Assembly (NCBI GenBank): GCA_028820655.1
Contig: JAPPIK010000051.1
Location: forward strand, 1 to 60,005
DNA: 60,005 bases
DNA from: Candidatus Poribacteria bacterium
Lineage (GTDB): Bacteria; Poribacteria; WGA-4E; JAJDTR01
Direction of reading: 5' to 3'
The translations under genes were made by a program, and so were the position numbers. This document shows positions 7,698-48,140 of this stretch, piece by piece. The notes under the pieces were generated by a model. That model had not been told where the DNA came from. It ran no database searches and saw only the letters and a list, made by a program, of their open reading frames with translations. Numbering within the stretch: position 1 is the first letter of the stretch; each line of letters begins with the position of its first letter.

Positions 7698-7927
7698 CAT
7701 TGCACTCCGCTGGAGTTCGGGATTTGAGGGTTCTGTTTTCTATTGACATGCCGCTCCGCTGGAGCGGGGAATCGCGACCGGGAGGTCGCTCCTACAAAAG
7801 GCTGGTGCGCGGGGGATCTCTATCGCACTCCCTATTCAGTCGTTTGATTGCACCCTACAACTGTCAAATCGCGACCGGGAGAAGATTCCTATCGCAGTCA
7901 ATATCCATTCCTTTGATCTCCTACAGA
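7698..7927. repeat. D, A, split B and split A in series
   Basis: D (CACTCCGCTGGAGTT, 7701), then D/A (GACATGCCGCTCCGCTGGAG followed by the perfect A hairpin, 7744-7794), then B with C inside (7799-7861: GGTGCGC, a C array, GCACC), then A with C inside (7868-7927: GCGACCGGGAGA, C, TCCTACAG). This is the clearest single place to see C occupying the apex of both A and B. The stretch 7344-7697 before it shows no gene and no repeat that I can define. Confidence 0.85.
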
Positions 7928-8030
7928 TGGGACGGGGAGCCGCGGGTCCGTAAAACCGACTGGATTCGGATGAAGGATTACCGGCATTTGGGATATCACC
8001 GAGAATCGTTGGGATTTTACAATTCCCGGG

Positions 8031-8212
8031 AAATGCGCTATACTACTGTTAATGGTTCGCTTCCCATTGCGGTGCGCGCGGAGGTTGAAGAGGCGTACCC
8101 CATCCATGATGCCTCCATGCGCCTTCAAGAGCCACATGGAGGCGCCGAGGGGAATAAAGAATACCCGATAAAGCCCGAATCTTCCGTAACCGAGGAAAAG
8201 GAATGCGAATAA
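8031..8212 (+). pseudogene. 3' remnant of a copy of the 8749-9345 gene
   Basis: The last 50 or so codons before the TAA at 8210 read GSLPIAVRAEVEEAY and, further on, EPHGGAEG. They match the C-terminal part of the gene at 8749-9345 (NSLPAPVRAEIEEAF, EPHGGVNG). The upstream part of the frame is repeat DNA (A/B/C mosaic), so the 5' part of this copy has been lost or replaced. It precedes a membrane gene exactly as its intact relative precedes another, which points to a duplicated two-gene unit. Confidence 0.65.
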
Positions 8213-21454: not shown

Positions 21455-22160
21455 CTAGTGGATAGTGGTCAGTAAGTAAGGGAAGAAGACAGGAAGATTG
21501 GGAAGGGGAAGGATGGAAGGGGCAGGAGTTGTCTGAATCACGGATTACACGGATTAAAGGATTTCACGGATTAGACGCGGGTTGTTGAGCGATTGACGAG
21601 AGTGCGAAAACGGGCATCGTCCGTTTCTATTGACATTCCACTCCTAACGAAGTGGGGAGTCGTGACCGGGAGGAGATTTCTAACGCAGTCATTATTCATT
21701 CATTTGATCTCCTACAGAGGGGAAGGGGGAGGCGCGACCGGGAGATCGCCTCTACAAAAGGCTGGTGCGCGGAAGATCTTTATCGCACTCGCTATCCACC
21801 CGCTTGATTCCACCCGACTACTGCCAAATCGCGACCGGGCGGTCGGTCGATGGGCGGCGGACGGGGAATCGCGGTGTGGAGAAGGTTTCTTCCGCACGCC
21901 AAATCTCACATGGCACTCCGCTGGAGTGCATAGACGAGGCGCGTCCGTTTCTATTGACATTCCACTCCTAACGGAGTGGGGAGTCGTGACCGGGAGAAGA
22001 TTCCTATCGCAGTCATTATTCATTCATTTGATCTCCTACAAAAGGCTGGTGCGCAGTGCGCACTCTGCCAAATCGCGACCGGGAGGTCGCTCCTACACGA
22101 GGTTGGTTGATGGGCGGCGGGCGGGGAGTCGCGACCTGGAGATCGCTCCTACAGACTTCA
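21440..22160. repeat. F repeat and A/B/C/D mosaic
   Basis: F-type sequence (21440-21580: AGCAGTGGTCAGTGACTAG, a G-rich tract, GAATCACGGATTACACGG), then D (CACTCCTAACGAAGTG), split A (21666-21718), A (21735-21755), split B (21756-21826), D, a second near-copy of D plus split A (21950-22039), intact B (22040-22069), A (22072-22098) and A (22126-22153). The 21.6 and 21.95 kb pieces are direct copies of each other. No gene is supported. 22161-22343 shows nothing beyond the leader of the next gene. Confidence 0.8.
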
Positions 22161-22343: not shown

Positions 22344-23450
22344 ATGGTGTGGACTCGCTGTTTCATGCGAACCGCTTTCATTTTCTTGGTTACGATGACC
22401 GCGCCAACATACGAATCGGCCGCCGAAATCCGCGTAGAGTGGACTCAACTGACCGCCGCGCAACCCATGGGGCGCGTGAACGCACTTGAATCTGATGGAC
22501 ACCGGCTCTACGCCGGTACGTGGAATGGCGTTTACATCTCCCACGATGACGGCTACACCTGGGGTTCAACCGAGGTAAAACACACCTGTACCTCGATTGC
22601 AATCCATCAAGATATCGTGTATGCGGGAACACATGGCGACGGCGTAGTTCGCTCCGACAATCTCGGGGAGACATGGAAGCCCATAAACAACGGACTGCCC
22701 CGATACGAAGAGGTCGACCAATACGGACGCATAGAGCAAATCCTGGTCACGGGCTCCGGCAGCGTTATCACTGTGACTAGCTTGGGCACGTACAGATCGA
22801 CCGACCGAGGTGAGACATGGCACGGCGTAATAGACGACTGGATAGTGCGCCAAGACGCGTGGGGAGCGCCCGACTTGCCAATCGCCCGCAGCATCTTGTC
22901 GATGACTGAATTCGATGGTTATCTGTGGGGCGAAGCGGATGGAGGCATGTTCCGTTCCCGTGACAACGGCCGTACGTGGGCATCTGTTTCCCGTTTCGGA
23001 CACCACCCGGCACACGACTGGGCGGCGTTCAATGATCAATTATACGTCGCCGGGGGCAGAGGCTTTGCACGATGGAACGAAGAAGGACTCCCTTTCGCTT
23101 GGGATTATCGCATCGCAGGTTTGCCAAGCGATTCCGATGGGTATCTGGAATACGCGCCCAGTTTAACAAGCTTGGCTGTAAACCGCGGTCGTCTGTTTGC
23201 CGGCCTTTACGATCACGGCGTCTACATGTTTGATGCGCGCTCGGACACATGGATTCCCGCAGGTCTGCAGTGGCTTACCGTTAGTGCACTCGTATCTCAT
23301 CGATCCGAGTTGTACGCGGCAACGTATGCGCTCCACGAAAGGCGGGCAGGCACCGTCCACACCCCGCAAGGTATCTACCGCGCCGCGATCCGGAGCGTAC
23401 TTCCCCACGACAAAGCCATCGCCACTTGGGGCGCCATTAAACGACAATGA
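22344..23450 (+). CDS. Secreted seven-bladed Asp-box propeller, copy 1 of the array
   Basis: A 368-aa secreted protein. ATG 22344 is preceded by GGTGGA and followed by a signal peptide (RCFMRTAFIFLVTMTAPTY). Four Asp-boxes are visible: SHDDGYTW, SDNLGETW, STDRGETW, SRDNGRTW. Then come DWAAFNDQLYVAG with GFARWNEE, LAVNRGRLFAGLYDHGVYMFD and LVSHRSELYAAT with GIYRAAI: seven sheet-like units, hence a predicted seven-bladed propeller. The C-terminus KAIATWGAIKRQ contains the motif K-x-x-x-T/A-W-G-x-I-K shared by the array. Asp-box proteins include sialidases, but none of the catalytic sialidase residues is seen, so a binding or scaffold role is more likely. Confidence 0.85.
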   Translation: MVWTRCFMRTAFIFLVTMTAPTYESAAEIRVEWTQLTAAQPMGRVNALESDGHRLYAGTWNGVYISHDDGYTWGSTEVKHTCTSIAIHQDIVYAGTHGDGVVRSDNLGETWKPINNGLPRYEEVDQYGRIEQILVTGSGSVITVTSLGTYRSTDRGETWHGVIDDWIVRQDAWGAPDLPIARSILSMTEFDGYLWGEADGGMFRSRDNGRTWASVSRFGHHPAHDWAAFNDQLYVAGGRGFARWNEEGLPFAWDYRIAGLPSDSDGYLEYAPSLTSLAVNRGRLFAGLYDHGVYMFDARSDTWIPAGLQWLTVSALVSHRSELYAATYALHERRAGTVHTPQGIYRAAIRSVLPHDKAIATWGAIKRQ

Positions 23451-24448
23451 AATACCCAAACCTTCTCGCTATCCCACTGATCTGCTGCTTCCTCTTCGCC
23501 TCGGGCGCCGCTCACGCCGCCGACTGGGAACTCCTGTCCCGCACGGGCCGTTACGGTGTGTACGCGCTTGAATCCGACGGCGAACGCCTTTACGGCGGCG
23601 GAAAGGACGGCGTGTATTTCACCCTTGATGACGGCTTAACCTGGCGCGAGAGCGACCTGAAACGCAGCATTTCGAGCGTGACAGCCGCGCCCGACGCCAT
23701 GTATGCCGTAACCTGGGCGGAAGCCGTCTACCGCTCCGAAACGCGCGGCAACACTTGGCACCGCATAGACAACGGTTTACCCACATTCCGAAACAAGCGC
23801 GGCGCCAACGGTCAGCATATTAAACAGATGCTCGTCACCCGTTCCGGAGTGCTGATCGCCGTTGGATTTCACGACGACAACTATATCTCTCGCGACGGCG
23901 GCGATACGTGGCACCAGGATTACAACATAGGTACCGGCGTCTACTCCATCGCCGAGTTCGACGGCTATATCTGGGCGGCGCACTCCAACTCCCGCGCCAT
24001 GCGCAGCGCGGACGGGGGCGGCACCTGGGAGATTCTCCCCGATTGGAGGGCTGGCAGCTTCGCAGAGTTTCGCCGCATACAGGATTGGGCGGTGTTCGAT
24101 AACAACCTGTACGTCGCCGGCGACTACGGCTTCGGCCGCTGGCGCGAAGAGGAACTCAAATGGGATGTGCTCAACCGCGGGCTTCCGAAGAAACCCTGTA
24201 TAGTGGATCTCGCGATTCACCGCGGGCGTATATTCGCGGTCGTCCACTCGTGGGCCGTGGCATACTTCGATCAGCCGTCCGAAACCTGGGAAGCGGTTGG
24301 CCCGCGGGATCTCAGGGTGACCAGCTTGGCGAGCCACCGGGACGAACTCTACGCCGCCACCGACCATGGGATTTACCGCGCCGTCTTTCCCCGCGTTCAA
24401 CCCTACAACAAAGCCGCCGTCACCTGGGGCGGCATTAAACGACCATGA
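23447..24448 (+). CDS. Secreted Asp-box propeller, copy 2
   Basis: A 333-aa protein coupled to copy 1 by an ATGA overlap. Signal peptide ends SGAAHAAD. Asp-boxes: TLDDGLTW, SETRGNTW, SRDGGDTW, SADGGGTW. Later blades: DWAVFDNNLYVAGDYGFGRW, IFAVVHSWAVAYFDQ, LASHRDELYAATDHGIYRA. Ends KAAVTWGGIKRP. One of the shorter members. It is followed by the lipoprotein at 24445 with another ATGA overlap. Confidence 0.85.
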   Translation: MKYPNLLAIPLICCFLFASGAAHAADWELLSRTGRYGVYALESDGERLYGGGKDGVYFTLDDGLTWRESDLKRSISSVTAAPDAMYAVTWAEAVYRSETRGNTWHRIDNGLPTFRNKRGANGQHIKQMLVTRSGVLIAVGFHDDNYISRDGGDTWHQDYNIGTGVYSIAEFDGYIWAAHSNSRAMRSADGGGTWEILPDWRAGSFAEFRRIQDWAVFDNNLYVAGDYGFGRWREEELKWDVLNRGLPKKPCIVDLAIHRGRIFAVVHSWAVAYFDQPSETWEAVGPRDLRVTSLASHRDELYAATDHGIYRAVFPRVQPYNKAAVTWGGIKRP

Positions 24449-24978
24449 AAATCTATCTACCCCTACTCCTCCTTCTCTTCGGCTGCGGCGAGGGGGAGCC
24501 GGTCGCCCCTGCCCCCGAAGGCCAGGCGCTCAAAGGCACTTTTGTGCTCACCAAAGCGGTCATGCATGAACTCATGGACGTCGGCGGCCCCGATCTCGAC
24601 GATCCGGTAATCATACGGCGTGTGCCGACCACCTATGTCTACCCGGCAGGCACCGGCCGGCTCGAACTGGACGAAGGCACGTTTTATTTGGACGCGCCGC
24701 TGCCGATACGGCCCCTTAAGTACAGAGGCAGATTTAAAGTAGTAGAAGAAGAATGGTCCAGGATTGACCTCCCCAGTCGCTACTACAAAAATGTGGACTA
24801 CCACAAAGTCATCCCCAAACTCGTGATAGACGTCTTTTTTGAAGGTGGAGGTGTAGCGCCCGAATACGGCAGATTCCCTTACGAGTGGATTGGGGACACC
24901 CTAAAACTAGAGTTTTGGCACCCTTTAAACCCGCCGTTCGTTTATGAGTTGTATTGGACTCGCGAAGCTGAACTGTAA
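24445..24978 (+). CDS. Lipoprotein with lipocalin-like strand pattern
   Basis: A 177-aa lipoprotein; ATGA overlap with copy 2; lipobox LLFGC. The body alternates strands and turns: GTFVLTKAV, GRLELDEGTFYLD, YRGRFKVVEEEWSRIDL, LVIDVFFEGGG, YEWIGDTLKLEF, FVYELYW. A G-x-(Y/F) start, a central 'DEGTFYLD' and a closing 'L-x-L/F' strand recall small lipocalin-like barrels, but no family motif is certain. Its place between two propellers suggests that the products act together at the cell surface. Confidence 0.75.
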   Translation: MKIYLPLLLLLFGCGEGEPVAPAPEGQALKGTFVLTKAVMHELMDVGGPDLDDPVIIRRVPTTYVYPAGTGRLELDEGTFYLDAPLPIRPLKYRGRFKVVEEEWSRIDLPSRYYKNVDYHKVIPKLVIDVFFEGGGVAPEYGRFPYEWIGDTLKLEFWHPLNPPFVYELYWTREAEL

Positions 24979-24997: not shown

Positions 24998-26071
24998 ATG
25001 AAAATCTATCTGCTCCTATTCGCCCTCTTTGCCGCCCATGCCCGCGCCGATTGGGAACATATCCCCGGCACCGAGGTCATCGGGCGCGTCCGTCTGCTAG
25101 AGAGCGACGGTGCCCGTCTCTACGCCGTAGGTAATACGGGCTTTTACCTCTCCTTCGACGACGGCTACACCTGGCGGCGCCGGGTCATTGGCCGCGGCAT
25201 TGAGGGCTTTTATATTACCGCCATCGGCAGCGGAGACGGTGCCGTCTATGTCGGTACGCGAGAACACGGTGTATTCCGCTCCGACAACCGCGGAAATACC
25301 TGGGTGCACATTAACGAAGGGCTTTACATCTTTGACGATCCGACATGGGGGCCCCACCACGGAAAGGTTGAACAAATACTCGTCACCAACTCCGGCATGG
25401 TCATCAACGTAGCATACCACCAGGGCACGCACATATCCCAAAACCGGGGCGATACTTGGCATTCCGTATACGACGAATGGATATACTCGCGGAACAAAGA
25501 GCGCAAAACACGCGACTGGCACATCGGCGGTGGCATCTTCTCGATGACGGAGTTCGACGGCTATCTGTGGGCAGTCTGGTCAAGCACATCCGAAATCATA
25601 TTCCGTTCCCCGGATAAAGGCGAAACGTGGGAAGTTCTTCCCAATCTGAAATACGGCGAGATAGCTGACTGGGCGGTGCTTGACGATAGATTATACGTCG
25701 CCGGAAGTCGAGGCTTTGGGCGGTGGAACGAAGCGGAATTCATGTGGGAACACCTCTTCCGGCGACGTTTTCGTTCCACCAAAAGGCTCTACGGCGACGG
25801 CCTCCCGGAGTCGCTTTGGTTGATCTCTCTCGCCGTGCATCGAAACCGCTTCTTCGCCGGCTCCAGGAGACACGGCGTGTTCATGTTCGATCCTCATGCC
25901 GAGACTTGGCGCCCCGCCGGGCTTCCGGATAAGCCCATCCGCGCCCTCGTGTCCCACCGCGGCGGCCTCTACGTCGCTTCAGAAGGAGGGATATACCGCG
26001 CCAATCTCCAGTTCGTCTCCCTCGAAGGGAAAACCGCCGTCACCTGGGGCGCAATAAAACTGGAGAGATGA
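24998..26071 (+). CDS. Secreted Asp-box propeller, copy 3 (type X)
   Basis: A 357-aa protein from ATG 24998 (the frame to 24944 overlaps the previous gene). Signal MKIYLLLFALFAAHARA. Starts DWEHIPGTEVIGRVRLLESD, almost the same as copies 6 and 8 (type X). Asp-boxes: SFDDGYTW, SDNRGNTW, SQNRGDTW, SPDKGETW. It also has GRGIEGFYITAIGSGDGAVY, shared by type X. Ends KTAVTWGAIKLER. The next copy overlaps by ATGA. Confidence 0.85.
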   Translation: MKIYLLLFALFAAHARADWEHIPGTEVIGRVRLLESDGARLYAVGNTGFYLSFDDGYTWRRRVIGRGIEGFYITAIGSGDGAVYVGTREHGVFRSDNRGNTWVHINEGLYIFDDPTWGPHHGKVEQILVTNSGMVINVAYHQGTHISQNRGDTWHSVYDEWIYSRNKERKTRDWHIGGGIFSMTEFDGYLWAVWSSTSEIIFRSPDKGETWEVLPNLKYGEIADWAVLDDRLYVAGSRGFGRWNEAEFMWEHLFRRRFRSTKRLYGDGLPESLWLISLAVHRNRFFAGSRRHGVFMFDPHAETWRPAGLPDKPIRALVSHRGGLYVASEGGIYRANLQFVSLEGKTAVTWGAIKLER

Positions 26072-27087
26072 CCCACATGAAAATCTATCTGCTGCCACTC
26101 TTCGTCCTCCTCTCCGCCCATGTCCACGCCGAGTGGGAGCTCATCCTCGAAAAAGGCGCCCATTGCATCGCCAGCGACGGCGAGCGCCTCTACGCCGGCA
26201 CCGAAAAAGGCATTCATTATTCGCGCGATGACGGCGACACTTGGCGCCTGAGTGATTTCACGGATCGGATAGCACATCTCGCGGCCTCGCCCCGCCTCGC
26301 TTTCGCCTACAGCGCCGAGCACGGCATCTTGCGCTCCATTACCAAAGGCAATACGTGGCATAGGAAAAACAACGGGTTCGACCGAAAAATGGACGGTAAC
26401 AGGTCCTACTATCCGAATCTGCGTCACTTCCTGATTACCAGTTTTGGCATGGTCGTCGCCGTCGGCCACCAGTCCGGCACATGGATGTCCCGCAACCGCG
26501 GCGATCGTTGGCAAAAGGCAAGCGACGTATGGAAGGGTGTGCCGCTGGGCAACTCTATCTATTCGATGGGCGAGCATGACGGCGATCTCTGGGGGCTTTG
26601 GTCAATCTATAAGGCTTTCCGCTCTCCCGACGAGGGCGCCACCTGGGAGTACATTCCCCACTGGGGAGACGTGCGCCATATCGGACAATTTGCCCTCGTG
26701 GAAGCGTGGGTATCATACAGGGGAGACCTCTACGTTGGCGGTCGCCGCGGGTTTGGGCGGTGGCGCGAAGAGACCCTCGACTGGGAAGATCTCAGCCAAG
26801 GCCTGCCCAAAAGACCTCATCTGTATCATCTCGTTGTGCATCGTGACCGCATTGTCGGCGGATCGCCCTACGGCGTGTTCACGTTCGACCATCATTCCGA
26901 GACTTGGTATCCGGCAGGTCTTTCCGACAAGAACATCCTCGGCCTCGTGTCGCATCGCGGAAATCTCTACGCCGCTGGCACCACGCAAGGGCACAGTGGG
27001 GTATACCGCGCCAAACGCCCCTTCGTGTCCCCCGAAGACAAAACCGCCGTCACCTGGGGCGCAATAAAGCTGGGAAACACCAAATGA
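26068..27087 (+). CDS. Secreted Asp-box propeller, copy 4 (type Y)
   Basis: A 339-aa protein; ATG 26068 overlaps the previous stop, though ATG 26077 is equally possible. Signal peptide IYLLPLFVLLSAHVHA. Asp-boxes: SRDDGDTW, SITKGNTW, SRNRGDRW, SPDEGATW. Bases 26419-26834 appear identical to 31204-31619 in copy 7, while the flanks differ, a sign of gene conversion or recent recombination. Ends KTAVTWGAIKLGNTK. Followed by a lipoprotein with ATGA overlap. Confidence 0.85.
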   Translation: MTHMKIYLLPLFVLLSAHVHAEWELILEKGAHCIASDGERLYAGTEKGIHYSRDDGDTWRLSDFTDRIAHLAASPRLAFAYSAEHGILRSITKGNTWHRKNNGFDRKMDGNRSYYPNLRHFLITSFGMVVAVGHQSGTWMSRNRGDRWQKASDVWKGVPLGNSIYSMGEHDGDLWGLWSIYKAFRSPDEGATWEYIPHWGDVRHIGQFALVEAWVSYRGDLYVGGRRGFGRWREETLDWEDLSQGLPKRPHLYHLVVHRDRIVGGSPYGVFTFDHHSETWYPAGLSDKNILGLVSHRGNLYAAGTTQGHSGVYRAKRPFVSPEDKTAVTWGAIKLGNTK

Positions 27088-27587
27088 CTGTCAGAATATA
27101 TCTGCTCCTACTGTTCACCCTCCTCGGCGGCTGCGGCGCCGAGAACACCATCCGCGAACGGGCGCCCGATCTTCCGGTCATCGACATCGGAGCCCACGAC
27201 ATACACCCCAGCTATTTTGTATTTCGGTTGGCGATTGAACCCGCGACGCAGGGAAAAATTTTCGTCAGCCAATCGGTAACTTACACGGGATACGTCTACG
27301 ACGACTGGAGGAACCAGTTTACGATCCACGTCCCCGACACCATCTTCGGAATAGACGCCGGACAGGAACTGTACACCGGAAGCATATCGAGACGCCTTTA
27401 TGCCGGCGACTTCAACGACCTTGACGTCGACCACCCCTTCGCAGAGGGAGATCACGGCATCGTCACCGCCGCCGCCATAACAATCTCCCCGACGACGAAG
27501 GAGGCCGGATATTACTACGAGAATAGCGCACCTTTTACCGTGGGCGTCTCCACCCAGATTTTCACGACGGACAGAAACGTTCGATAA
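27084..27587 (+). CDS. Lipoprotein of unknown family
   Basis: A 167-aa lipoprotein starting at ATG 27084 within ATGACTG; lipobox LLGGC. The upstream frame to 26904 is a shadow of copy 4. The mature part is strand-rich: PVIDIGAHDIHPSYFVFRL, SQSVTYTGYVYDDWRNQF, GIVTAAAITISPTTKEAGYY. A beta-sandwich is plausible. Not clearly related to the other lipoproteins here. Confidence 0.75.
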   Translation: MTVRIYLLLLFTLLGGCGAENTIRERAPDLPVIDIGAHDIHPSYFVFRLAIEPATQGKIFVSQSVTYTGYVYDDWRNQFTIHVPDTIFGIDAGQELYTGSISRRLYAGDFNDLDVDHPFAEGDHGIVTAAAITISPTTKEAGYYYENSAPFTVGVSTQIFTTDRNVR

Positions 27588-27628
27588 TAACCCCAGACGG
27601 GAATTCCTTAGTGCGGCGGTAAAGCACC

Positions 27629-28693
27629 ATGAAAATCTTCTTGCTCTCATTACTCGCGTCACTCGCCTTCGCCGCGCCGGATGCCAGCCACTCCACCGGC
27701 GCCGGGGCCGACATCCGCGCGGAGTGGGAGCAAATCGCGGACGGCGAGGCTCTGCCGTGGGTGTACGCGCTCGCGGCGGACGATCATACGCTATACGCCG
27801 GGGGCCGGGGCGGACTGTACATCTCCGAAGATGACGGCCATGCGTGGCGGCAAACTATGGAACCCGGTGTGCGCTCTCTCGCAATCAGCGCGAACCACGT
27901 GTATGCGGGTACGGCCAATCACGGTGTATTTCGCTCTACCGACCGCGGCAACACATGGGAGCGCATAAACGTAGGGCTCCCGGCACAACTCAATGGCAAG
28001 CGACCGGCCATTCAACAGATACTCATTACAAACTCGGGCAGTCTCATCGCCCTCACCCACGACAACGGTTCGTTCGTGTCGTATAACCGGGGCGCCGTGT
28101 GGCACGATCAATCCGACGATTGGACGGTTGGAGTACATTACATAAGCCGGGAGATCCGGTCGATGACGGAGTTCGACGGTTACCTGTGGGCGTACCTCTC
28201 AACCGGATGGATCGTCCGTGCCCTTAGCGAGCGCACCATCTGGGGATCCGTTAAGTGGTTTGAGCGCGGCCGGATCACCGACTGGGCGGTGGTTAACGAT
28301 GAATTGTATGCCGCCGGCGTAAGGGGCTTCGGGCGATGGAACGAAGTGGAACTCGGATGGGAGTATTTCGGCGACGGCCTGCCTACGGGCCCCTACTCTC
28401 CGCATGTTACAACCCTGGCCGCCCACCGCGGCCGCATCTTCGCCGGACTGAACGGCGGCGGCGTTTACCTGTTCGATGAACGCGCGGAAAGGTTTATTCC
28501 CGCAGGGCTGCAGGATTATATCATCGGCGCACTCATATCCCATCGATCCCATTTATACGCCTCAACCGAACAATTCGCCAACCGAAAACACACGTTCGAG
28601 GGTATCTACCGCGCCTCCATCCCCGTCGTTCAACCCTACGGCAAAGCCGCCGCCACATGGGGCGCTATAAGGCAAAGACATCCGTTCCCTTGA
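27629..28693 (+). CDS. Secreted Asp-box propeller, copy 5
   Basis: A 354-aa protein; signal peptide KIFLLSLLASLAFAAPDA. Asp-boxes: SEDDGHAW, STDRGNTW, SYNRGAVW; the fourth is worn (ALSERTIW). Later blades: DWAVVNDELYAAGVRGFGRW, IFAGLNGGGVYLFDERAERF, SHRSHLYASTEQ and GIYRASI. Ends KAAATWGAIRQRHPFP, with a few extra residues after the motif. After the stop the sequence turns into repeats. Confidence 0.85.
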   Translation: MKIFLLSLLASLAFAAPDASHSTGAGADIRAEWEQIADGEALPWVYALAADDHTLYAGGRGGLYISEDDGHAWRQTMEPGVRSLAISANHVYAGTANHGVFRSTDRGNTWERINVGLPAQLNGKRPAIQQILITNSGSLIALTHDNGSFVSYNRGAVWHDQSDDWTVGVHYISREIRSMTEFDGYLWAYLSTGWIVRALSERTIWGSVKWFERGRITDWAVVNDELYAAGVRGFGRWNEVELGWEYFGDGLPTGPYSPHVTTLAAHRGRIFAGLNGGGVYLFDERAERFIPAGLQDYIIGALISHRSHLYASTEQFANRKHTFEGIYRASIPVVQPYGKAAATWGAIRQRHPFP

Positions 28694-28734
28694 TATAATA
28701 CAGCGACCGACACATATCAAACGGGTGAGGGCAG

Positions 28735-29102
28735 TTGAGACGGGCAGAAAAACGGAAGACAGGAAGGGGGGAAAAGCAGTAGCCAGTGACCAGTGCCTAG
28801 TGACCAGCGGGAAGGAGGGGAGGGAGAAGGATTGTCTGAATCACGGATTTCGCGGAAGGCGAGGGATGGGCGGTGGTAAGGGAAAGAATCGAGGATTGGA
28901 TGGCGGCTTGTCGTCTTGATTTACCAAACACATGGCACTCCTCCGGAGTGCGAGAATTGAGGTTTCTCGTTTCTATTGACATTGGGGATCTCTATCGCGC
29001 TCCTTATTCAGTCGCTTGATCCCACGGAGCGGGGAATCGCGACCGGGAGATCGCTCCTACAGTCAAAAGGCTGGTGCGCGGTGCACACCCTACAACTGCT
29101 TA
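28735..29102. repeat. F, D, C, A and B repeats replacing a propeller gene
   Basis: F-type sequence (AGCAGTAGCCAGTGACCAG, purine-rich tract, GAATCACGGATTTCGCGG), D (CACTCCTCCGGAGTG, 28934-28948), C inside a D/A unit (28984-29020), an A hairpin GCGACCGGGAGATCGC (29039-29054) and B (GGCTGGTGCGCGGTGCACACC, 29069-29089). The block ends where the last codons of a propeller begin, so it lies in place of most of one member of the array. Confidence 0.8.
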
Positions 29103-29145
29103 CCGCAAAGCCGCCGTTACCTGGGGCGCCCTTAAAACGAAATGA
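29103..29145 (+). pseudogene. C-terminal remnant of a twelfth propeller copy
   Basis: Bases 29103-29145 read KAAVTWGALKTK-stop, the conserved end motif of the array, and match almost base for base the end of copy 7 (31829-31869). The remainder of the gene is gone; repeat B directly abuts it. Confidence 0.8.
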
Positions 29146-29155
29146 GAGACCACTC

Positions 29156-30232
29156 ATGACTAACAATCTCAGCTTAACGTTTATCCTAACTCCACTGCTG
29201 CTCGCGGTCTGGTTCTCCGCCTCCGCCCTAAACGCCCACGCCGATTGGGAACATATCCCCGGCACCGAGGTCATCGGGCGCGTCCGTCTGCTCGAGAGCG
29301 ACGGTCCCCGTCTCTACGCCGTAGGTGACACCGGGTTTTACCTCTCCTTTGACGACGGCTACACCTGGCGCCGCCGCGAAATTGGCCGCGGCTTAGAGGA
29401 ATTTTATATCACCGCCATTGGAAGCGGCGACGGCGCCGTCTATGTCGGTACCACATTTCACGGCGTATTCCGCTCCGACGACGGCGGCAACACCTGGAAG
29501 CACATCAACGAAGGGCTTCAGGTCTTCGACAGCCCGAAATGGGGACCCCGACACGGAATAGTTGAACAATTACTCGTCACCGGTTCCGGCACGGTCATCA
29601 ACGTAGGATACCACTATGGAACGCACATATCCGACAACCGTGGCGAGACTTGGCATTCCGTATTGGACGAATGGATATACCCGGGAAACCCCGACTGGCG
29701 CTTCGGCGATAGTATCTGGTCAATGACGGAGTTCGACAGCTATCTGTGGGCAGTCTATTCAAGCACCTCCGGTACCGTACTCCGTTCCGCTGATAAAGGT
29801 CAAACGTGGGAATCGCTGCCCGTCGTTGTACCGGGCAACGAACACGGGTTCGGCCAGATATCCGACTGGGCGGCGATTGAGGATAAATTGTACGTCGCCG
29901 GATACCTCGGCTTTGGACGCTGGAACGAAGCCGAACGCATGTGGGAAAATCTCAGCCGCGGGTTTCCCGACGTGCCTTACATGAATCAACTGGCTGTCAA
30001 TCGCCGCCGCATTTTCGCCACGTTTTACGGATTGGACCGCGGCGTGTGGCTGTTCGATCACCCGTCCGAAACATGGGTGCCCGTAGGTCCGCCGGACGTT
30101 GACGTTCACCCGCTCGTTTCACACCAATCCGATCTGTATGCCGGCGCCGAAAACGGCATCTACCGCGCCTCGATCCCGATCGTGAGTCTGTACGGAAAAA
30201 CCGCTGTCACCTGGGGCGTGATCAAACAATAA
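29156..30232 (+). CDS. Secreted Asp-box propeller, copy 6 (type X)
   Basis: A 358-aa protein from ATG 29156 (GAGAG upstream); the longer frame is repeat-derived. Signal MTNNLSLTFILTPLLLAVWF, then DWEHIPGTEVIGRVRLLESD as in copy 3. Asp-boxes: SFDDGYTW, SDDGGNTW, SDNRGETW, SADKGQTW. Late blades: DKLYVAGYLGFGRWNEAE, GVWLFDHPSETWVPVG, LVSHQSDLYAGAENGIYRA. Ends KTAVTWGVIKQ. Confidence 0.85.
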   Translation: MTNNLSLTFILTPLLLAVWFSASALNAHADWEHIPGTEVIGRVRLLESDGPRLYAVGDTGFYLSFDDGYTWRRREIGRGLEEFYITAIGSGDGAVYVGTTFHGVFRSDDGGNTWKHINEGLQVFDSPKWGPRHGIVEQLLVTGSGTVINVGYHYGTHISDNRGETWHSVLDEWIYPGNPDWRFGDSIWSMTEFDSYLWAVYSSTSGTVLRSADKGQTWESLPVVVPGNEHGFGQISDWAAIEDKLYVAGYLGFGRWNEAERMWENLSRGFPDVPYMNQLAVNRRRIFATFYGLDRGVWLFDHPSETWVPVGPPDVDVHPLVSHQSDLYAGAENGIYRASIPIVSLYGKTAVTWGVIKQ

Positions 30233-30347
30233 CAAAGCACGATACGTACGATTTTCGGACATAAACCACAATATTCGCCCGCCAATCAGCCTGAAAACGG
30301 GTGTTATAGCTCTAAAACAATTTCCAATAGTCCGCGAGGAGCATATC

Positions 30348-30854
30348 ATGAGCACGCCAACACTAATCATCTTCGTTACGCTCGGCCTCATCGCCTCTGC
30401 CGCCCTCGCCGGCTGCAGCCACGACCATCCGCTGAAAGACCACCACCACGACCATGAACACGATTACACATTGCCCGTGCACAATCACAACAACCTGTTC
30501 ACCCTCGGCCTGCCCTATACCTATATTGTCAGCGTCGATCCGCCGCTCTCCGAATATAACATCGTGCCCACCGGCTATCTGACAAACCGCTTGTACGGTA
30601 AAGAAATCGTCTACATCAGGTTCAATCGTCCCGCAAAAAACCTGATGTTCACCAACGTCGAATATCCACACCTTTACACCACCCGGGTATCGGGAGTCGG
30701 CTATGAAGAAAACCGTATTTACCGCGCCAGCGTCCGAACAGACTGCAGCGATCCGGAACACACCGGGTATATCGCCTTCCGAATCACCTGGGACACCGGA
30801 CCCGAAGACACCGGAACCGCCGATTTCATTTACAAGTGCCCCGAAGAGGAGTAA
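30348..30854 (+). CDS. His-rich lipoprotein related to family R
   Basis: A 168-aa lipoprotein with GAGGAG before the ATG and lipobox ALAGC. Directly after the acylated Cys is a histidine/aspartate cluster (SHDHPLKDHHHDHEHDY), a likely site for Zn, Ni or Cu. The rest follows the family R lipoproteins at 20.1-21.5 kb: YIVSVDPPLSEYN, VYIRFNRPAKNL, and a closing strand-pair ending in a Cys (YKCPEEE). Its role may be metal capture or structural metal binding at the surface; this is inferred from composition. Confidence 0.75.
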   Translation: MSTPTLIIFVTLGLIASAALAGCSHDHPLKDHHHDHEHDYTLPVHNHNNLFTLGLPYTYIVSVDPPLSEYNIVPTGYLTNRLYGKEIVYIRFNRPAKNLMFTNVEYPHLYTTRVSGVGYEENRIYRASVRTDCSDPEHTGYIAFRITWDTGPEDTGTADFIYKCPEEE

Positions 30855-30858
30855 TCAC

Positions 30859-31869
30859 ATGCGACCACCAGTCATCTTTGTTACTCTCGCCCTTATCGCC
30901 TCTGCCGCCCACGCCGACTGGGAACTTATCCTCGAAAAAGGCGCCTATTGCATCGCCAGCGACGGCGAACGCCTCTACGCCGGCACCGAAAAAGGCATCT
31001 ATTATTCGCGCGACGACGGCGACACCTGGCGCCTCAGTGATTTCACGGATCGGATAGGACATCTCGCCGCCTCGCCCCGCCTCGCTTTCGCCTACAGCGC
31101 CGACCACGGCATCTTGCGCTCCGTTACCAAAGGCAATACGTGGCATAGGATAAACAACGGATTCGACCGAAAAATGGACGAAAACAGGCTCTACTATCCG
31201 AAACTGCGTCACTTCCTGATTACCAGTTTTGGCATGGTCGTCGCCGTCGGCCACCAGTCCGGCACATGGATGTCCCGCAACCGCGGCGATCGTTGGCAAA
31301 AGGCAAGCGACGTATGGAAGGGTGTGCCGCTGGGCAACTCTATCTATTCGATGGGCGAGCATGACGGCGATCTCTGGGGGCTTTGGTCAATCTATAAGGC
31401 TTTCCGCTCTCCCGACGAGGGCGCCACCTGGGAGTACATTCCCCACTGGGGAGACGTGCGCCATATCGGACAATTTGCCCTCGTGGAAGCGTGGGTATCA
31501 TACAGGGGAGACCTCTACGTTGGCGGTCGCCGCGGGTTTGGGCGGTGGCGCGAAGAGACCCTCGACTGGGAAGATCTCAGCCAAGGCCTGCCCAAAAGAC
31601 CTCATCTGTATCATCTCGTCGTGCATCGTGACCGCATTGTCGGCGGATCGCCCTACGGCGTGTTCATGTTTGACCATCATGCCGAGACTTGGTACCCGGT
31701 CGGGCTGTCGGACGTGAGCATCTCCGCCGGCGGGCTCGTTTCCCATCGCGGGAATCTCTACGCCGCTGCTGCGTCTCGGGGCCATGATGGGATATACCGC
31801 GCCAAACGCCCCTTCGTGTCCCCCGAAGGCAAAGCCGCCGTCACCTGGGGCGCCCTTAAAACGAAATGA
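30859..31869 (+). CDS. Secreted Asp-box propeller, copy 7 (type Y)
   Basis: A 336-aa protein from ATG 30859, four bases after the lipoprotein stop, with GAGGAG upstream. Signal RPPVIFVTLALIASAAHA. Asp-boxes: SRDDGDTW, SVTKGNTW, SRNRGDRW, SPDEGATW. The middle of the gene matches copy 4 without a mismatch over about 415 bases, while the final 150 differ more and end KAAVTWGALKTK. Confidence 0.85.
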   Translation: MRPPVIFVTLALIASAAHADWELILEKGAYCIASDGERLYAGTEKGIYYSRDDGDTWRLSDFTDRIGHLAASPRLAFAYSADHGILRSVTKGNTWHRINNGFDRKMDENRLYYPKLRHFLITSFGMVVAVGHQSGTWMSRNRGDRWQKASDVWKGVPLGNSIYSMGEHDGDLWGLWSIYKAFRSPDEGATWEYIPHWGDVRHIGQFALVEAWVSYRGDLYVGGRRGFGRWREETLDWEDLSQGLPKRPHLYHLVVHRDRIVGGSPYGVFMFDHHAETWYPVGLSDVSISAGGLVSHRGNLYAAAASRGHDGIYRAKRPFVSPEGKAAVTWGALKTK

Positions 31870-31881
31870 GAGAGATCACTC

Positions 31882-32955
31882 ATGACTAACAAACTCCTCT
31901 TGACGGTTAGCCTAATCCTACTCCTGCTTGCGGTCTGGATCGGCGCATCCGCCCGAGCCGGGTGGGAACATATCCTCGGCACAGAGGTCATCGGGAGCGT
32001 CGGCCTGCTTGAGAGCGACGATCTCCGTCTCTACGCTACAGGCGACACCGGTTTTTACCTCTCCTTTGATGGCGGTTACACCTGGCGCCGCCGCGAAATT
32101 GGCCGCGGCATCGACGACTTTTATATCACCGCTATCGGCAGTGGTGACGGTGCCGTCTATGTCGGTACGGCAGACCACGGCGTAGTCCGCTCCGACGACA
32201 GCGGAAACACTTGGAAACACATTAACGAAGGGCTTCACATCTTCGGCCATCCGCAATGGGGAGCCCACTACGGAAAGGTTGAACAAATTCTCGTCACCAG
32301 TTCCGGCATGGTCATCAACGTAGGGTACCACCGTGGCACGCACATATCCGACAACCGGGGCGAGACATGGCGCGCCGTAACGACGGAATGGAAAGCCCCC
32401 CAAGGACCGGGTCTGGTCGACTGGGCTTTCGGCGACGGCATCTGGTCGATGACCGAGTTCGACGGCTATCTCTGGGCAGTCTATTCGGACGCCCCGGCCT
32501 TCCGATCCCCCGACCAGGGCGGCACTTGGGAGCTTCTTCCCGCCCGCAGCCACGGGGGCATCGGCGACTTTTGGCGCGTCCACGACTGGGCGGCCCTCGG
32601 AGATAAGTTGTACGTCGCCGGAAGCGCCGGCTTCGGACGCTGGAACGAAGTCGAACTCAGGTGGGACTATCTCAGCCGAGGGCTTCCCGACAAGCCCGGC
32701 ATGAAGCAGTTGGCGGTTAATGGCGGCCGAATCTTCGCCGCCTTTTTCCAATCCGAACGCGGCGTGTGGTTGTTCGACCAGCCGTCCGAAACATGGTTCC
32801 CGGCAGGTTTGCAGCACGTTCGCGTTTATTCGGTCGCATCCCACCAATCCGAACTGTACGCCGGCACCGAAAACGGCATCTACCGCGCCTCAATTCGAAC
32901 CGTACTCCCCCAGGGCAAAGCCATCACGGCCTGGGGCGCTGTAAAACAAGAATGA
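31882..32955 (+). CDS. Secreted Asp-box propeller, copy 8 (type X)
   Basis: A 357-aa protein; signal MTNKLLLTVSLILLLLAVWI, then GWEHILGTEVIGSVGLLESD. Asp-boxes: SFDGGYTW, SDDSGNTW, SDNRGETW, SPDQGGTW. Later blades DWAALGDKLYVAGSAGFGRW, GVWLFDQPSETWFPAG, SHQSELYAGTENGIYRASI. End motif KAITAWGAVKQE. The Y-X order of copies 7-8 and the X-Y order of copies 3-4 suggest block duplication. It overlaps copy 9 by ATGA. Confidence 0.85.
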   Translation: MTNKLLLTVSLILLLLAVWIGASARAGWEHILGTEVIGSVGLLESDDLRLYATGDTGFYLSFDGGYTWRRREIGRGIDDFYITAIGSGDGAVYVGTADHGVVRSDDSGNTWKHINEGLHIFGHPQWGAHYGKVEQILVTSSGMVINVGYHRGTHISDNRGETWRAVTTEWKAPQGPGLVDWAFGDGIWSMTEFDGYLWAVYSDAPAFRSPDQGGTWELLPARSHGGIGDFWRVHDWAALGDKLYVAGSAGFGRWNEVELRWDYLSRGLPDKPGMKQLAVNGGRIFAAFFQSERGVWLFDQPSETWFPAGLQHVRVYSVASHQSELYAGTENGIYRASIRTVLPQGKAITAWGAVKQE

Positions 32956-34175
32956 AATACTTAACCCTGATCGCCTCTATGCTCCTTGTCGTCTCCATCG
33001 TCCGCGCCGAGATCGAACTGGTGTGGCGCCCGGTGGCCGACGAAGAGACGATGGGCGATGCGTACGTCCTTGCGAGCGATGGACACAGCCTCTACGCCGG
33101 TGGGGATGGAGTGCACGTCTCCGACGATCACGGTTACACCTGGCGACCGACCGCCGTCACCGACTATACCAGACAGATTAAAATCAGCGAGGATGCCGTG
33201 TATGCCGCGACAGAAACACAGGGCATATTCCGATCGGACGACCGTGGCAACAGCTGGCAGCCGAAAAGTCAAGGCCTTCCGACTTGGGGGGCCGGCGAGT
33301 ACCGCAGCGTCGGCCAAATCTTCATCAGCCGCTCCGGAACAATCGTCTGCGTGACGGTAAGCGGAACCTTCGCATCAACAGACCGCGCCGAGACCTGGCA
33401 CGAGATAACGAAGAAGTGGCGCGTGCGCGGCCATCATACGCTAATAGCCCAGAATACCAATACCATCACCGAATTAGGCGATTCGTGGTGGGCCTCCGGC
33501 TGGCGCACGGCGTACCGATCGCGCGACAACGGCGGCACCTGGGAATTCGCGAGCTCCGACGGAAAGGAGGAATTCGAGTGGATAAGTTCTTGGGTGATGC
33601 TCAACAACCGATTATATGCCGCCGGAGCAATACGCCACGAAGCCCAACACACCGATTATTACGCACCCTATTTTGGACGGTACGAACCCGAACGTCGTTG
33701 GACAAAACTCACACGAGGGCTTCCAGCGCCCGATGCCGCAAGGCGACATAACCTTATAAGCTCCTTAACCCTATACGGCCGCCGCATCTTTACCGCGCAC
33801 TACCTAGACGGAGTGTACCGGTTTAACGCGCGAATCGAAGGGTGGAGACCGGTCGGACTGCAGGGCAAAAGAGTAAGCTCGGTTATCACCCACCAGTCCC
33901 ACCTTTACGCCATGACCTACGACCACGGCATCTTCCGGGCGACGCTCCGGGGCGCCGTACAACCTGATAACAAAGCCCCAGCCATCTGGGGGCGATCAAA
34001 CAGAAATGAAACAGACAACCCTCATCGCCTCTATGTTCTTGGTTATCTCCCTCGCCCGTGCCGAGTGGGAACGCATCCCCGGGGCGGAGGAAATGGGATA
34101 CGTATACGCAATGGCAAGCGATGGAGATCGACTTTACGCCGGCGCCAAACACGGAGTCTTCATCTCGCCGGATGA
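32952..34175 (+). CDS. Secreted Asp-box propeller, copy 9, with frameshifted tail
   Basis: The frame encodes 407 aa. Signal KYLTLIASMLLVVSIVRA. Asp-boxes: SDDHGYTW, SDDRGNSW, STDRAETW, SRDNGGTW. The end should read KAPAIWGAIKQK-stop, and in another frame a TGA at 34007-34009 gives the usual ATGA overlap with copy 10. But the G-run at 33988-33992 has lost one base, so the frame goes on as GRSNRNETD for another 55 residues inside copy 10. Either a natural mutation or a sequencing error; the ancestral protein was about 351 aa. Confidence 0.8.
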   Translation: MKYLTLIASMLLVVSIVRAEIELVWRPVADEETMGDAYVLASDGHSLYAGGDGVHVSDDHGYTWRPTAVTDYTRQIKISEDAVYAATETQGIFRSDDRGNSWQPKSQGLPTWGAGEYRSVGQIFISRSGTIVCVTVSGTFASTDRAETWHEITKKWRVRGHHTLIAQNTNTITELGDSWWASGWRTAYRSRDNGGTWEFASSDGKEEFEWISSWVMLNNRLYAAGAIRHEAQHTDYYAPYFGRYEPERRWTKLTRGLPAPDAARRHNLISSLTLYGRRIFTAHYLDGVYRFNARIEGWRPVGLQGKRVSSVITHQSHLYAMTYDHGIFRATLRGAVQPDNKAPAIWGRSNRNETDNPHRLYVLGYLPRPCRVGTHPRGGGNGIRIRNGKRWRSTLRRRQTRSLHLAG

Positions 34176-35091
34176 CGGCTCCACCTGGAATCCAACCGAT
34201 CTTGACCACGGAATTTACGCAATTGTCGTCGGTTGGGACGGCGCCGTCTATGCAAGCGGAGGATATAAACACGGGCTATACCGGTCCGACACCCACGGGC
34301 ACTCATGGAAGCCAATCAATAACGGTCTTCGTACGTGGGAGCGCGGCGGCGGCCTCCGCTTCCCAAGCATCGAGCAGATACTTCCCACCACCTCACGGAG
34401 CCTCATCGCTGTCCCCGGCTCCGGTCCGTATATTTCCCTCAACCGGGGCGATTCATGGCAGTGGGTCGGCTTCGAATGGGTATACGGGCACCCAGCCTGG
34501 GAGAAGCCCTATGCATTCGGGTATGAGATTACCACAATGACCGAGTTCGATGGCTATCTGTGGGCATACACGAAATTCCGGGAAGTGTATCGTTCTCCGG
34601 ATAACGGCGAAACGTGGGATAAGGTGCCGGAACACGACGAATTGATACCCGTTCTTAAAGACAACATCCGCGAAATAAAGCACTGGGCGGCGCTTGACAA
34701 TCGATTGTATGTTGCCACCACCGACGCCTTTGGGGTATGGAACGAAGGGGAACTCATTTGGGAAAATCGCAACGAAGGGCTACCGGTCGATAACACGGAG
34801 CTCCCCGCGTACCGGGAATACCTCCGCACCATATACGACATATTTACCCTGGCGGTTAACCGCGGGCGTATCTTTGCCGGAGTTCGCGACCGCGGCGTGT
34901 GGGTGTTTGATGAGCGATCACAGACCTGGATTCCCGTAGGCCTGAACGGCCGACACGTTGGCACGCTCGTATCCCATCAATCCTATCTTTACGCCGCGAC
35001 ATCCCCCGACGGCATCTATCGCGCCTCGATCCCGGTCATTAACCCCTATGGAAAAACCGCCGCCACCTGGGGCGCCATCAAACGACCATGA
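34006..35091 (+). CDS. Secreted Asp-box propeller, copy 10
   Basis: A 361-aa protein; signal KQTTLIASMFLVISLARA, close to that of copy 9. Asp-boxes: SPDDGSTW, SDTHGHSW, SLNRGDSW, SPDNGETW. It has an insertion (DNTELPAYREYLRTIYDIF) between blades 5 and 6. Ends KTAATWGAIKRP. ATGA overlap with copy 11. Confidence 0.85.
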   Translation: MKQTTLIASMFLVISLARAEWERIPGAEEMGYVYAMASDGDRLYAGAKHGVFISPDDGSTWNPTDLDHGIYAIVVGWDGAVYASGGYKHGLYRSDTHGHSWKPINNGLRTWERGGGLRFPSIEQILPTTSRSLIAVPGSGPYISLNRGDSWQWVGFEWVYGHPAWEKPYAFGYEITTMTEFDGYLWAYTKFREVYRSPDNGETWDKVPEHDELIPVLKDNIREIKHWAALDNRLYVATTDAFGVWNEGELIWENRNEGLPVDNTELPAYREYLRTIYDIFTLAVNRGRIFAGVRDRGVWVFDERSQTWIPVGLNGRHVGTLVSHQSYLYAATSPDGIYRASIPVINPYGKTAATWGAIKRP

Positions 35092-36080
35092 AATACCTAA
35101 GCCTCCTCGCACTCCCACTGATCTGCCTCCTCCTTCTCTCGGGCCGCGCCCGCGCCGAATTGCAAGCCGACTGGGAGCAACTCGTCGGCGGCGAGTTTAC
35201 CCCGAACGGGACCACGCTAGAAACCGACCAGACCCGTCTCTTCTTGGGGGAGGGGGACGGATTTTACATGTCCCGGGACCACGGTTATACCTGGCGCCTA
35301 ACCCTTCCGGACCGCCAAATTACGGCAATCGCCATCGGTAAGAATGCCCTCTATGCGGGCACATCCAAGCATGGCTTATTCCGCTCCGACAGCCGCGGGG
35401 TCACATGGCAAAAGAAAAGCGGCCGCGCCCCCATAAAACAGATAGTCGTCTTGCGTTCCGGCGCCGTCATCGCCGGCAGGTACCCCGCCGGGGTCTATAT
35501 ATCCTTCAACCGGGGGGATACGTGGGACGATATATACGACCGCTGGCTCGAAAAACTGAGTCATGTTGGCTATAATATTTGGTCTATCACCGAGTTCGAC
35601 GGCTATCTCTGGTCCTCAACCTCGGGCGGAGGTATCATCCGTACCCCCGACATGGGCAAGACTTGGAAATGGGCTACGGAAGATTTTCGACTTGGCCGCG
35701 TATCCGACTGGGCAGTATTTAACGATCGATTATACGCCGCAGCAGGCGGCTTCGGACGATGGAACGAAGCCAAACACACTTGGGAGTATTTCAACGAAGG
35801 CCTTCAACCCGAACGCGGCGCCCAGCGTTTTTCAAGCCTGGCAGTGAATCGCGGACGTCTCTACGCCAGGCTCCTATCCTCCGGCGTTTACCTGTTTGAC
35901 GAGCGTTCGGAAACGTTTGTTCTCGCCGGTCTGCGGGAATCTGTTATCCTCGATCTCGTATCCCATCAAGGCTATCTGTACGCCGCAGCCGAAGACGAAG
36001 GCATCTACCGCGCCAGCATCCCGGCCGTGCAACCCTACAACAGGGCTACCGTCACTTGGGGCGCACTCAAAACAAAATGA
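35088..36080 (+). CDS. Secreted Asp-box propeller, copy 11
   Basis: A 330-aa protein, the shortest intact copy. Signal KYLSLLALPLICLLLLSGRA. Asp-boxes: SRDHGYTW, SDSRGVTW, SFNRGDTW, TPDMGKTW. Later blades: DWAVFNDRLYAAAGGFGRW, GVYLFDERSETFVLAG, SHQGYLYAAAEDEGIYRASI. Ends RATVTWGALKTK. The following lipoprotein gene starts 12 bases after the stop with the same leader (ACCACTCATGACTAAC) as copies 6 and 8. Confidence 0.85.
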   Translation: MKYLSLLALPLICLLLLSGRARAELQADWEQLVGGEFTPNGTTLETDQTRLFLGEGDGFYMSRDHGYTWRLTLPDRQITAIAIGKNALYAGTSKHGLFRSDSRGVTWQKKSGRAPIKQIVVLRSGAVIAGRYPAGVYISFNRGDTWDDIYDRWLEKLSHVGYNIWSITEFDGYLWSSTSGGGIIRTPDMGKTWKWATEDFRLGRVSDWAVFNDRLYAAAGGFGRWNEAKHTWEYFNEGLQPERGAQRFSSLAVNRGRLYARLLSSGVYLFDERSETFVLAGLRESVILDLVSHQGYLYAAAEDEGIYRASIPAVQPYNRATVTWGALKTK

Positions 36081-36092
36081 CGGAGACCACTC

Positions 36093-36647
36093 ATGACTAA
36101 CACACTCGGCTTAACCTTTATCCTAACCCCGCTGCTGGCGATCTACCTAACCGGCTGCGCCGCAAAGCTGGAGGAGCCCGAACTCGACCTCGCGCCCCTC
36201 GTCCGCATTGAGAACTTCGTTTCCTTCGAAGGGAGCACCAGCAAAATAGGAAGCATGACGGTCAACGCCAGCCCGGACGCAGAAAGTATGAAATACCTCG
36301 AAGACAAAAAGCGCCAAATAGCGCGGCTCGAAGACCGTCTCAACGCCTACTATCGCAAAGCGCTGCGCCGGCTGACCTATCTCCGCCTCAACAATCCGCT
36401 CGAGACACCCATCATCATCACCGACATTTTCAAAGAGATCGGAGATCCGATCGACGCCTTCTATAGCGACAGACTGCGCCGTAAGAGCGACCTCGAATTG
36501 GGCGCGGCGGCGCTGCAAATCAGCCTCAACGATTACATCCGGCGACTTATTAGCGCCCTGGAACGGGAAGACGATGAAATTTCCTACAAGATGTGGAAAG
36601 AATCGAAAAAGGATGAAACCGATGAAAACCCTGATTCTGCTAGGTAG
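36093..36647 (+). CDS. Lipoprotein of family L, first of tandem pair
   Basis: A 184-aa lipoprotein; lipobox YLTGC. Signature of family L: IGSMTVNAS, LEDRLNAYYRKALRRL, RLNNPLETPIIITDIF, GDPIDAFYSD, LQISLNDYIRRL. It shares CAAKLEEPEL and LAPLVRxENF with the next gene, so the two are tandem copies. It overlaps the next gene by 26 bases. Confidence 0.85.
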   Translation: MTNTLGLTFILTPLLAIYLTGCAAKLEEPELDLAPLVRIENFVSFEGSTSKIGSMTVNASPDAESMKYLEDKKRQIARLEDRLNAYYRKALRRLTYLRLNNPLETPIIITDIFKEIGDPIDAFYSDRLRRKSDLELGAAALQISLNDYIRRLISALEREDDEISYKMWKESKKDETDENPDSAR

Positions 36648-47289: not shown

Positions 47290-48140
47290 TCTATTTAGGT
47301 AGGAGCGATCTCCGAATCGCGACGGTCGGGAATCGGTGGGAACTCCTCCTACCACCGGCAAAACTCACGCTCCATTTCTTGACTCTCAAGTAACACTCGA
47401 CATTGTGCTCCGCTGGAGCACGGAGATTAGACGCATCACGGTTCTATTGACATAGCACTCCGCTGGAGTGAAAACGATGCTACGAAGAAACGCTTTTCCA
47501 ATATCTGTCATAGAGCGAAAAACGAGTGTTGCTTGCTGAATGAATTATTCCGACAGGGATAATGGGGCGCTACCAAGTAACACTCGAAATTGCACTCCGC
47601 TGGAGTGCAGACGCAGGGGGGAATCGTTTTCTATTGACATCTCACTCCGCTGGAGTGAAAACCAGACCACGAAGGAACTCTTTTCCAATACCTGTCATAG
47701 CGAGAAAAACAAGTGTTGCTTGCTGAATGAATTATTCCGACAGGGATAATGGCGCGCTATCAAGTAACACTCGACATAGCACTCCGCTGGAGTGCAGACG
47801 CAGGGGGGAATCGTTTTCTATTGACATCTCACTCCGCTGGAGTGAAAACCAGACCACGAAGGAACTCTTTTCCAATACCTGTCATAGCGAGAAAAACAAG
47901 TGTTGCTTGCTGAATGAATTATTCCGACAGGGATAATGGCGTGCTATCAAGTAACACTCGACATAGCACTCCGCTGGAGTGCGGTGATTGGACGGATCGC
48001 CATCTACAGACATTGCGCAGGATTTTCTATCGCACTCACTATTCATTCGTTTGATCCTCTGGAGCGAAAAACCAGTGTTACTCGCGGAATGAATTATTCC
48101 GACAGGAATAATGGCACGCTCTTAAAAAACGCAACTTCCA
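47290..48140. repeat. 187-bp tandem array built on D palindromes
   Basis: Three copies of the unit boundary ATGAATTATTCCGACAGGGA lie at 47540, 47727 and 47914 (spacing 187 each), and a diverged fourth at 48089. Each unit carries two D hairpins (CACTCCGCTGGAGTG), then a 53-base piece whose ends GTGTTGCTTG and CAAGTAACAC are inverted and whose core is ATTATTCC-GACAG-GGATAAT. At 47301-47325 an A repeat lies in reverse orientation. A C element is inserted into the last unit (48013-48058). Identical open frames here (69 codons) are repeat by-products, not genes. Confidence 0.85.

Follow-up and report, generated by a model that had tools for sequence, protein, structure and literature searches.

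Copies 4 and 7 of an array of propeller genes in the genome of a sponge-type Candidatus Poribacteria bacterium share a long internal block of DNA, and the same two genes differ before and after it. The locus raises the question of whether this block was exchanged between the two genes, and whether such exchange generates new binding surfaces. The window analyzed here is the whole stretch of 60,005 nucleotides (contig JAPPIK010000051.1, positions 1 to 60,005, forward strand; assembly GCA_028820655.1), which belongs to a 5.88 Mb draft genome in 61 contigs. Poribacteria live as dominant symbionts in marine sponges and are uncultivated (PMC3909097). Comparison across species is with one genome of the same genus (G001), whose orthologous array lies on its contig C123; its copies carry the prefix R below. 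Very probably, copies 4 and 7 underwent a segmental gene conversion in the recent past, the latest of many events in the array; others swapped gene units as well as signal-peptide and junction segments.

An array of secreted propellers and small lipoproteins

The window contains an array of 11 genes for secreted seven-bladed propellers of the BNR/Asp-box type, with small lipoprotein genes interleaved. Copies 4 and 7 are numbered correctly if the propeller gene at 22344 is counted as copy 1.

22344–23450, plus strand: copy 1 (W1), propeller; missing from the relative's array
23447–24448, plus strand: copy 2 (W2), propeller; 1:1 orthologue of R1 (89% nucleotide identity) with a replaced signal peptide
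24445–24978, plus strand: lipoprotein lipD; body 84–95% identical to the relative, signal peptide exchanged
24998–26071, plus strand: copy 3 (W3), propeller unit flanked by repeats in signal-peptide-coding DNA; the relative lacks it at this place
26077–27087, plus strand: copy 4 (W4), secreted seven-bladed propeller of the BNR/Asp-box type; open reading frame, sub-threshold Pfam Sortilin-Vps10/BNR matches, AlphaFold, Foldseek
27084–27587, plus strand: lipoprotein lipE; the exchanged block is its tag–stop–start–signal peptide junction
27629–28693, plus strand: copy 5 (W5), propeller; open reading frame, Pfam, comparison within the array
29101–29155, plus strand: orphan propeller 3′ end and junction upstream of copy 6; body missing, matches the 3′ end of R5
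29156–30232, plus strand: copy 6 (W6), propeller; open reading frame, Pfam, comparison within the array
30348–30854, plus strand: lipoprotein lipF; signal-peptide DNA (63 nt) shares 83% identity with that of copy 7, an unrelated gene
30859–31869, plus strand: copy 7 (W7), propeller; open reading frame, Pfam, 91% nucleotide identity to copy 4
31882–32955, plus strand: copy 8 (W8), propeller; open reading frame, comparison within the array
32952–34175, plus strand: copy 9 (W9), propeller; frame overruns the usual end, homology stops near 33998
34006–35091, plus strand: copy 10 (W10), propeller; open reading frame, comparison within the array
35088–36080, plus strand: copy 11 (W11), propeller; matches R5 in its body and 3′ junction
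36093–36647, plus strand: lipoprotein lipG; 5′ junction and signal-peptide type as in copies 6 and 8 (repeat family D13)

Every copy has an N-terminal segment resembling a signal peptide, together with Asp-box repeats of the form S-x-D-x-G-x-x-W, and nearly all copies carry the C-terminal tail K-x-x-x-T-W-G-x-[ILV]-K. Matches of the array proteins to NCBIfam and Pfam models mostly lie under the curated cut-offs: one Pfam BNR match exceeds its cut-off and most fall below, and the Sortilin-Vps10 and YCF48 families score 22–28 bits against a required 33 (PF15902) and 20–21 against 27 (PSII_BNR). The AlphaFold model of copy 4, for which an alignment of the array's own members served as input, has a pLDDT of 85.3 and a pTM of 0.84. 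Its DSSP strands read as seven four-stranded blades, and its C-terminal tail (residues 321–336) is of low confidence and probably disordered. Foldseek matches of the model are propellers, including YCF48. The array proteins resemble the YCF48/HCF136, sortilin-Vps10, and BNR/Asp-box xyloglucanase propellers in their Asp-box blades, their modeled seven-bladed fold, and their sequence-profile matches to PDB entries, but they differ from them in having no enzyme domain, in matching mostly below cut-off, and in carrying an apparently phylum-specific C-terminal tag.

The window also contains a dispersed, partly tandem intergenic repeat, GCGACCGGGAGATCGCTCCTACA, at 21590–22160 and again at 7737, 37256, and 40234; repeats of this type are found in other contigs as well (stretches L001 and L002).

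Copies 4 and 7 share an identical tract between diverged flanks

The original prediction reported about 415 bases matching by eye, with divergence on either side, and proposed an exact alignment and a GENECONV-type test as checks. The alignment yields 416 identical bases out of 416 and delimits the following features:

26419–26834, plus strand: identical tract in copy 4, residues 115–253; exact comparison, permutation test, structure model
31204–31619, plus strand: identical tract in copy 7; exact comparison
26836–26881 (partner 31621–31666), plus strand: 46 extra identical bases past one mismatch; exact comparison

The 5′ edge of the tract is sharp, with mismatches already inside the 23 bases upstream. 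On the 3′ side, a single mismatch (26835/31620) precedes the 46 further identical bases, which extend to 26881/31666. The divergence around the tract was confirmed for the same gene pair: 21 of 293 sites differ in the mature 5′ flank (7%) and 39 of 241 in the 3′ flank (16%), and identity over the full genes is 91% at the nucleotide level. The contrast between tract and flanks is significant for all sites (Fisher P = 2.7e-16) and for third codon positions alone (P = 8.6e-10), where none of 138 positions is changed in the tract, against 13 of 98 and 21 of 81 in the flanks. When columns were permuted 2000 times in a GENECONV-type test, the observed score, a run of 283 consecutive matching columns among 682 polymorphic ones, was never reached. 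The tract is also the longest exact repeat of the window, the runners-up measuring 163 and 140 bases. Separately, a tandem repeat of 187-base period lies at 47525–47943 and contains identical stretches of 163, 41, and 40 bases.

Synonymous divergence between the two copies falls into three levels: 0.166 for the 5′ part, 0.463 for the 3′ part, and 0 for the tract, which has about 93 synonymous sites and a 95% upper bound of about 0.03. The sole clean orthologous pair between the two species, W2 and R1, has a dS of approximately 0.20–0.25, and three ages are therefore present within one gene pair. By this yardstick, the 5′ parts coalesce at about the time of the species split, the tract at less than roughly 15% of that age, and the 3′ parts well before the split.

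The model places the tract on blades 3 to 5 and on the first strand (A) of blade 6, which fits the proposal that blades are exchanged between copies. The ends of the tract apparently match blade boundaries; since inter-blade loops make up a large share of the gene, this match was left out of the evidence.

A recent gene conversion probably explains the tract

Gene conversion or recent recombination, as originally proposed, is well supported by the three ages, by a dS of 0 at about 93 sites, by the lack of conservation of this region elsewhere, and by the presence of comparable blocks in other arrays. The exchange would be a non-reciprocal homologous recombination between paralogues, in which blades 3–5 of one copy were replaced by those of the other; general knowledge suggests a RecA-type process as the agent. 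The distances of W4 and W7 to R2–R4 favor neither copy as the donor. Differences between copies 4 and 7 also do not fit a diversity-generating retroelement, as the 60 differences are of all types and 26 involve A.

Purifying selection that holds blades 3–5 identical would account for the identity of the two proteins across the tract, but it is refuted by the silent sites and has a negligible probability. No third position is changed, and the same region differs by 28–30% from R2–R4 of the relative, with a dS of 0.55–0.83; because silent sites are identical in a region that diverges this far elsewhere, the tract does not reflect mere constraint. An assembly artefact, in which a short-read assembler merged two similar copies through bulge removal or a wrong path in the repeat, is unlikely. 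In its favor, the bin yielded no 16S rRNA, a sign of a short-read assembly, and the contigs of the relative bear names in the k141 (MEGAHIT) style, so that short reads are likely; a repeat of 416 bases exceeds a short read, and small differences could have been merged. However, the 5′ flanks were kept apart although they differ by only 7% and contain exact runs of up to 35 bases, as were the single mismatch and the 46 identical bases that follow it, and the distinct flanks of both copies lie in one gap-free contig with no N. As flanks of such low divergence stayed separate, a collapse is quite improbable. Moreover, merging requires near-identical input, and even in this case the true tract would be far more alike than its flanks.

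The pattern would be the same if the whole gene, or a longer block, had recently been duplicated and both flanks had then been overwritten from other paralogues, with the tract as the remnant. Gene units have clearly been gained and lost in the array, and in their 5′ part copies 4 and 7 are 92.8% identical to each other, compared with 72–80% between either of them and the relative's copies. This history nevertheless requires a minimum of two later replacements, one per side, where a single conversion would do. In addition, no recent duplication connects the neighbors of copy 4 (W3 and lipE) with those of copy 7 (lipF and W8), and no larger duplication is left. We consider this origin unlikely and favor segmental conversion between the two existing genes.

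Exchange at signal peptides and gene junctions

Beyond the identical tract, the comparison with the relative points to a longer history of exchange, in which the conversion between copies 4 and 7 would be the latest of many events. Across most of its body, W4 is only 71–79% identical to its positional orthologue R4, whereas the following gene, lipE, shows 85–93% and the W2/R1 pair 84–96% identity between the species; the body of W4 was therefore replaced since or around the split. Other events would have moved whole gene units and let propellers and unrelated small lipoproteins trade their signal-peptide and junction segments. The anchor would be DNA that recurs at the ends of genes (the C-terminal tag) and at their starts (the signal peptides).

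Gains and losses of genes between the two arrays have a breakpoint in signal-peptide-coding DNA in three of three cases. The W3 unit is present in the window and absent in the relative, and the signal peptide of R4 is W3-like in its first half and W4-like in its second. The lipD genes have orthologous bodies with different signal peptides, the switch lying inside the signal peptide, and the relative has R2–lipX–R3 in between. W1 is an extra gene in the window, and the signal peptide of W2 is unlike that of R1, its orthologue in the same place. The relative has a block of 100 identical bases at R2 and again at R4, which leads out of the C-terminal tag, across the stop and start codons, and into the signal peptide of the following gene. 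The two lipoproteins behind this block have bodies with no detectable homology beyond the signal-peptide region. The stretch 29101–30218 of the window matches 9171–10287 of the relative, and the orphan 3′ end at 29101–29155 is a scar of block recombination.

Array shuffling occurs largely at signal-peptide and junction segments, crosses gene boundaries, and links unrelated genes, an aspect that the original prediction overlooked. The identity of the tract, the mosaic of ages in the gene pair, these signal-peptide breakpoints, and the similar blocks in other arrays are direct observations. Breakpoints of this kind offer a simple route for handing export signals to unrelated proteins. Tentatively, and with a much lower probability than the conversion itself, the conserved block of TWGxxK tag, stop, start, and signal peptide in tandem arrays could be the homology anchor of a general diversification system for secreted propellers in Poribacteria, one that swaps entire protein bodies, those of unrelated lipoproteins among them, and groups of blades; new surface-binding proteins would then be assembled behind ready-made export signals.

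Two further observations concern the lipoprotein genes. The signal-peptide DNA of the unrelated genes lipF and copy 7 matches at 30353–30415 and 30858–30920 (repeat family D20). In the relative, the lipE orthologue after R4 is frameshifted (stretch L036, reverse complement, 7631–8170), and a second lipE-like gene is found at 10301.

Identical blocks in other arrays

The genome contains two further arrays, which encode secreted PD40-type propellers with the same C-terminal motif. In these arrays, the identical blocks measure 714, 564, 269, and 245 bases on contig C8 and 246 bases on contig C7, and no such block exceeds 131 bases in ten control stretches of about 20 kb each; as the arrays were picked by motif and the controls arbitrarily, these numbers describe a contrast and not a genome-wide rate. 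The 564-base block comprises an intergenic region and a gene start, and its identity decays inside the signal peptide.

The 714-base block is an exact direct repeat (stretch L152, 14141–14854 and 15993–16706) that takes in the end of one PD40 propeller gene together with the beginning of its successor. Approximately 1.1 kb with small minus-strand open reading frames separates its two copies. This block could have an origin other than array exchange, such as duplication, insertion, or misassembly.

Possible consequences for the propeller surface

The original prediction regarded the exchange of blades as a way to make new binding surfaces. Copies 4 and 7 do not by themselves show this: conversion made them more alike in the tract, and dN/dS carries no diversifying signal. 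The ratio is about 0.3 in the 5′ part and about 0.2 in the 3′ part, and diversifying selection is therefore not indicated between the two. Conversion homogenizes two copies locally, and a novel combination of blades arises only in the recipient. New surfaces made by exchange in the array are nonetheless plausible, the one line of support being that variability sits on a single propeller face.

Amino-acid variability is concentrated on the propeller face where the BC and DA loops lie and is low in the AB and CD loops. This distribution resembles a variable binding face, yet the long DA loops may simply be less constrained. We infer that the array proteins are displayed at the cell surface; if so, active recombination and variability on one face suggest a rapidly evolving surface in contact with hosts, phages, or glycans. 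Mosaicism between strains is predicted at the array loci.

Comparison with known diversification systems

Segmental copying between the members of an array is a well-known bacterial route to surface-protein diversity. Gene conversion of segments among paralogous surface-protein genes is described for vlsE and vmp of Borrelia, msp2/p44 of Anaplasma, and tprK of Treponema (reviewed in PMC4534519). The propeller array is like these systems in that tracts of a few hundred bases, covering part of a gene, are copied within a family, and vlsE conversion tracts reach 423 bases (PMC4534519). In relapsing-fever Borrelia, conserved homology segments up- and downstream anchor the exchange (PMC4534519), which is comparable with the shared junctions of the array. 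In contrast to the systems in these three genera, the array consists of 11 intact, separately secreted genes, each with its own start, and its exchange also takes in the signal peptides of unrelated lipoprotein genes. The array does not fit cassette-type antigenic variation, as in vlsE, msp2, or pilE: all 11 reading frames are intact, and the window contains neither a single expression site nor silent donor cassettes.

The HNWD recognition genes of the fungus Podospora encode WD40 propellers that undergo concerted evolution and have their variable positions on one face (PMC2873952). Both systems have beta-propellers of a recognition type that are diversified by recombination, with variability on one face. 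HNWD genes, however, trade near-identical single repeats within and between genes, whereas the array trades several blades between separate genes. The array likewise does not fit HNWD-type concerted evolution, as the repeat families found in it include no direct repeats within a gene and the blades are not near-identical.

A C-terminal motif of poribacterial secreted proteins

The C-terminal tail of the array proteins recurs throughout the genome. A DNA-level search for T-W-G-x-[LIVMF]-K gives 106 matches, compared with 7 for the reversed control, and in all 29 distinct occurrences that were read out, TWGxxK lies 2–14 residues before a stop. In the window, it is found at 23424, 24422, 26042, 27052, 29119, 30209, and 31843, among other positions. 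Its carriers are secreted and fall into at least three unrelated domain types (LamG, PD40, and BNR). The motif is enriched in 13 of 13 genomes tested from the order and in none of six genomes from other phyla. These distributions make TWGxxK a candidate for a phylum-specific C-terminal targeting tag of Poribacteria.

No NCBIfam model matched TWGxxK in the proteins scanned, and Por (type IX secretion, T9SS) sorting-domain models in NCBIfam had no match to an array protein at E ≤ 1. PF18962 matches 18 places in the genome, in genes other than those of the array. Kamke et al. (2014, PMC3909097) describe abundant secreted, eukaryote-like repeat proteins of the WD40 kind in Poribacteria that have a Por-type C-terminal domain; possible TIGR04183 domains are reported on the WD40 proteins, with the matching secretion genes missing. 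The array proteins are similar in belonging to the same phylum and in being secreted repeat proteins, but they differ in ending in TWGxxK and in matching no T9SS sorting-domain model. The passages of that study consulted here contain no description of recombination of such genes. In two WD40-repeat proteins (L172 and L173), TWGxxK lies about 35 residues ahead of a Por-type tail (NYPNPFNPETWIP...).
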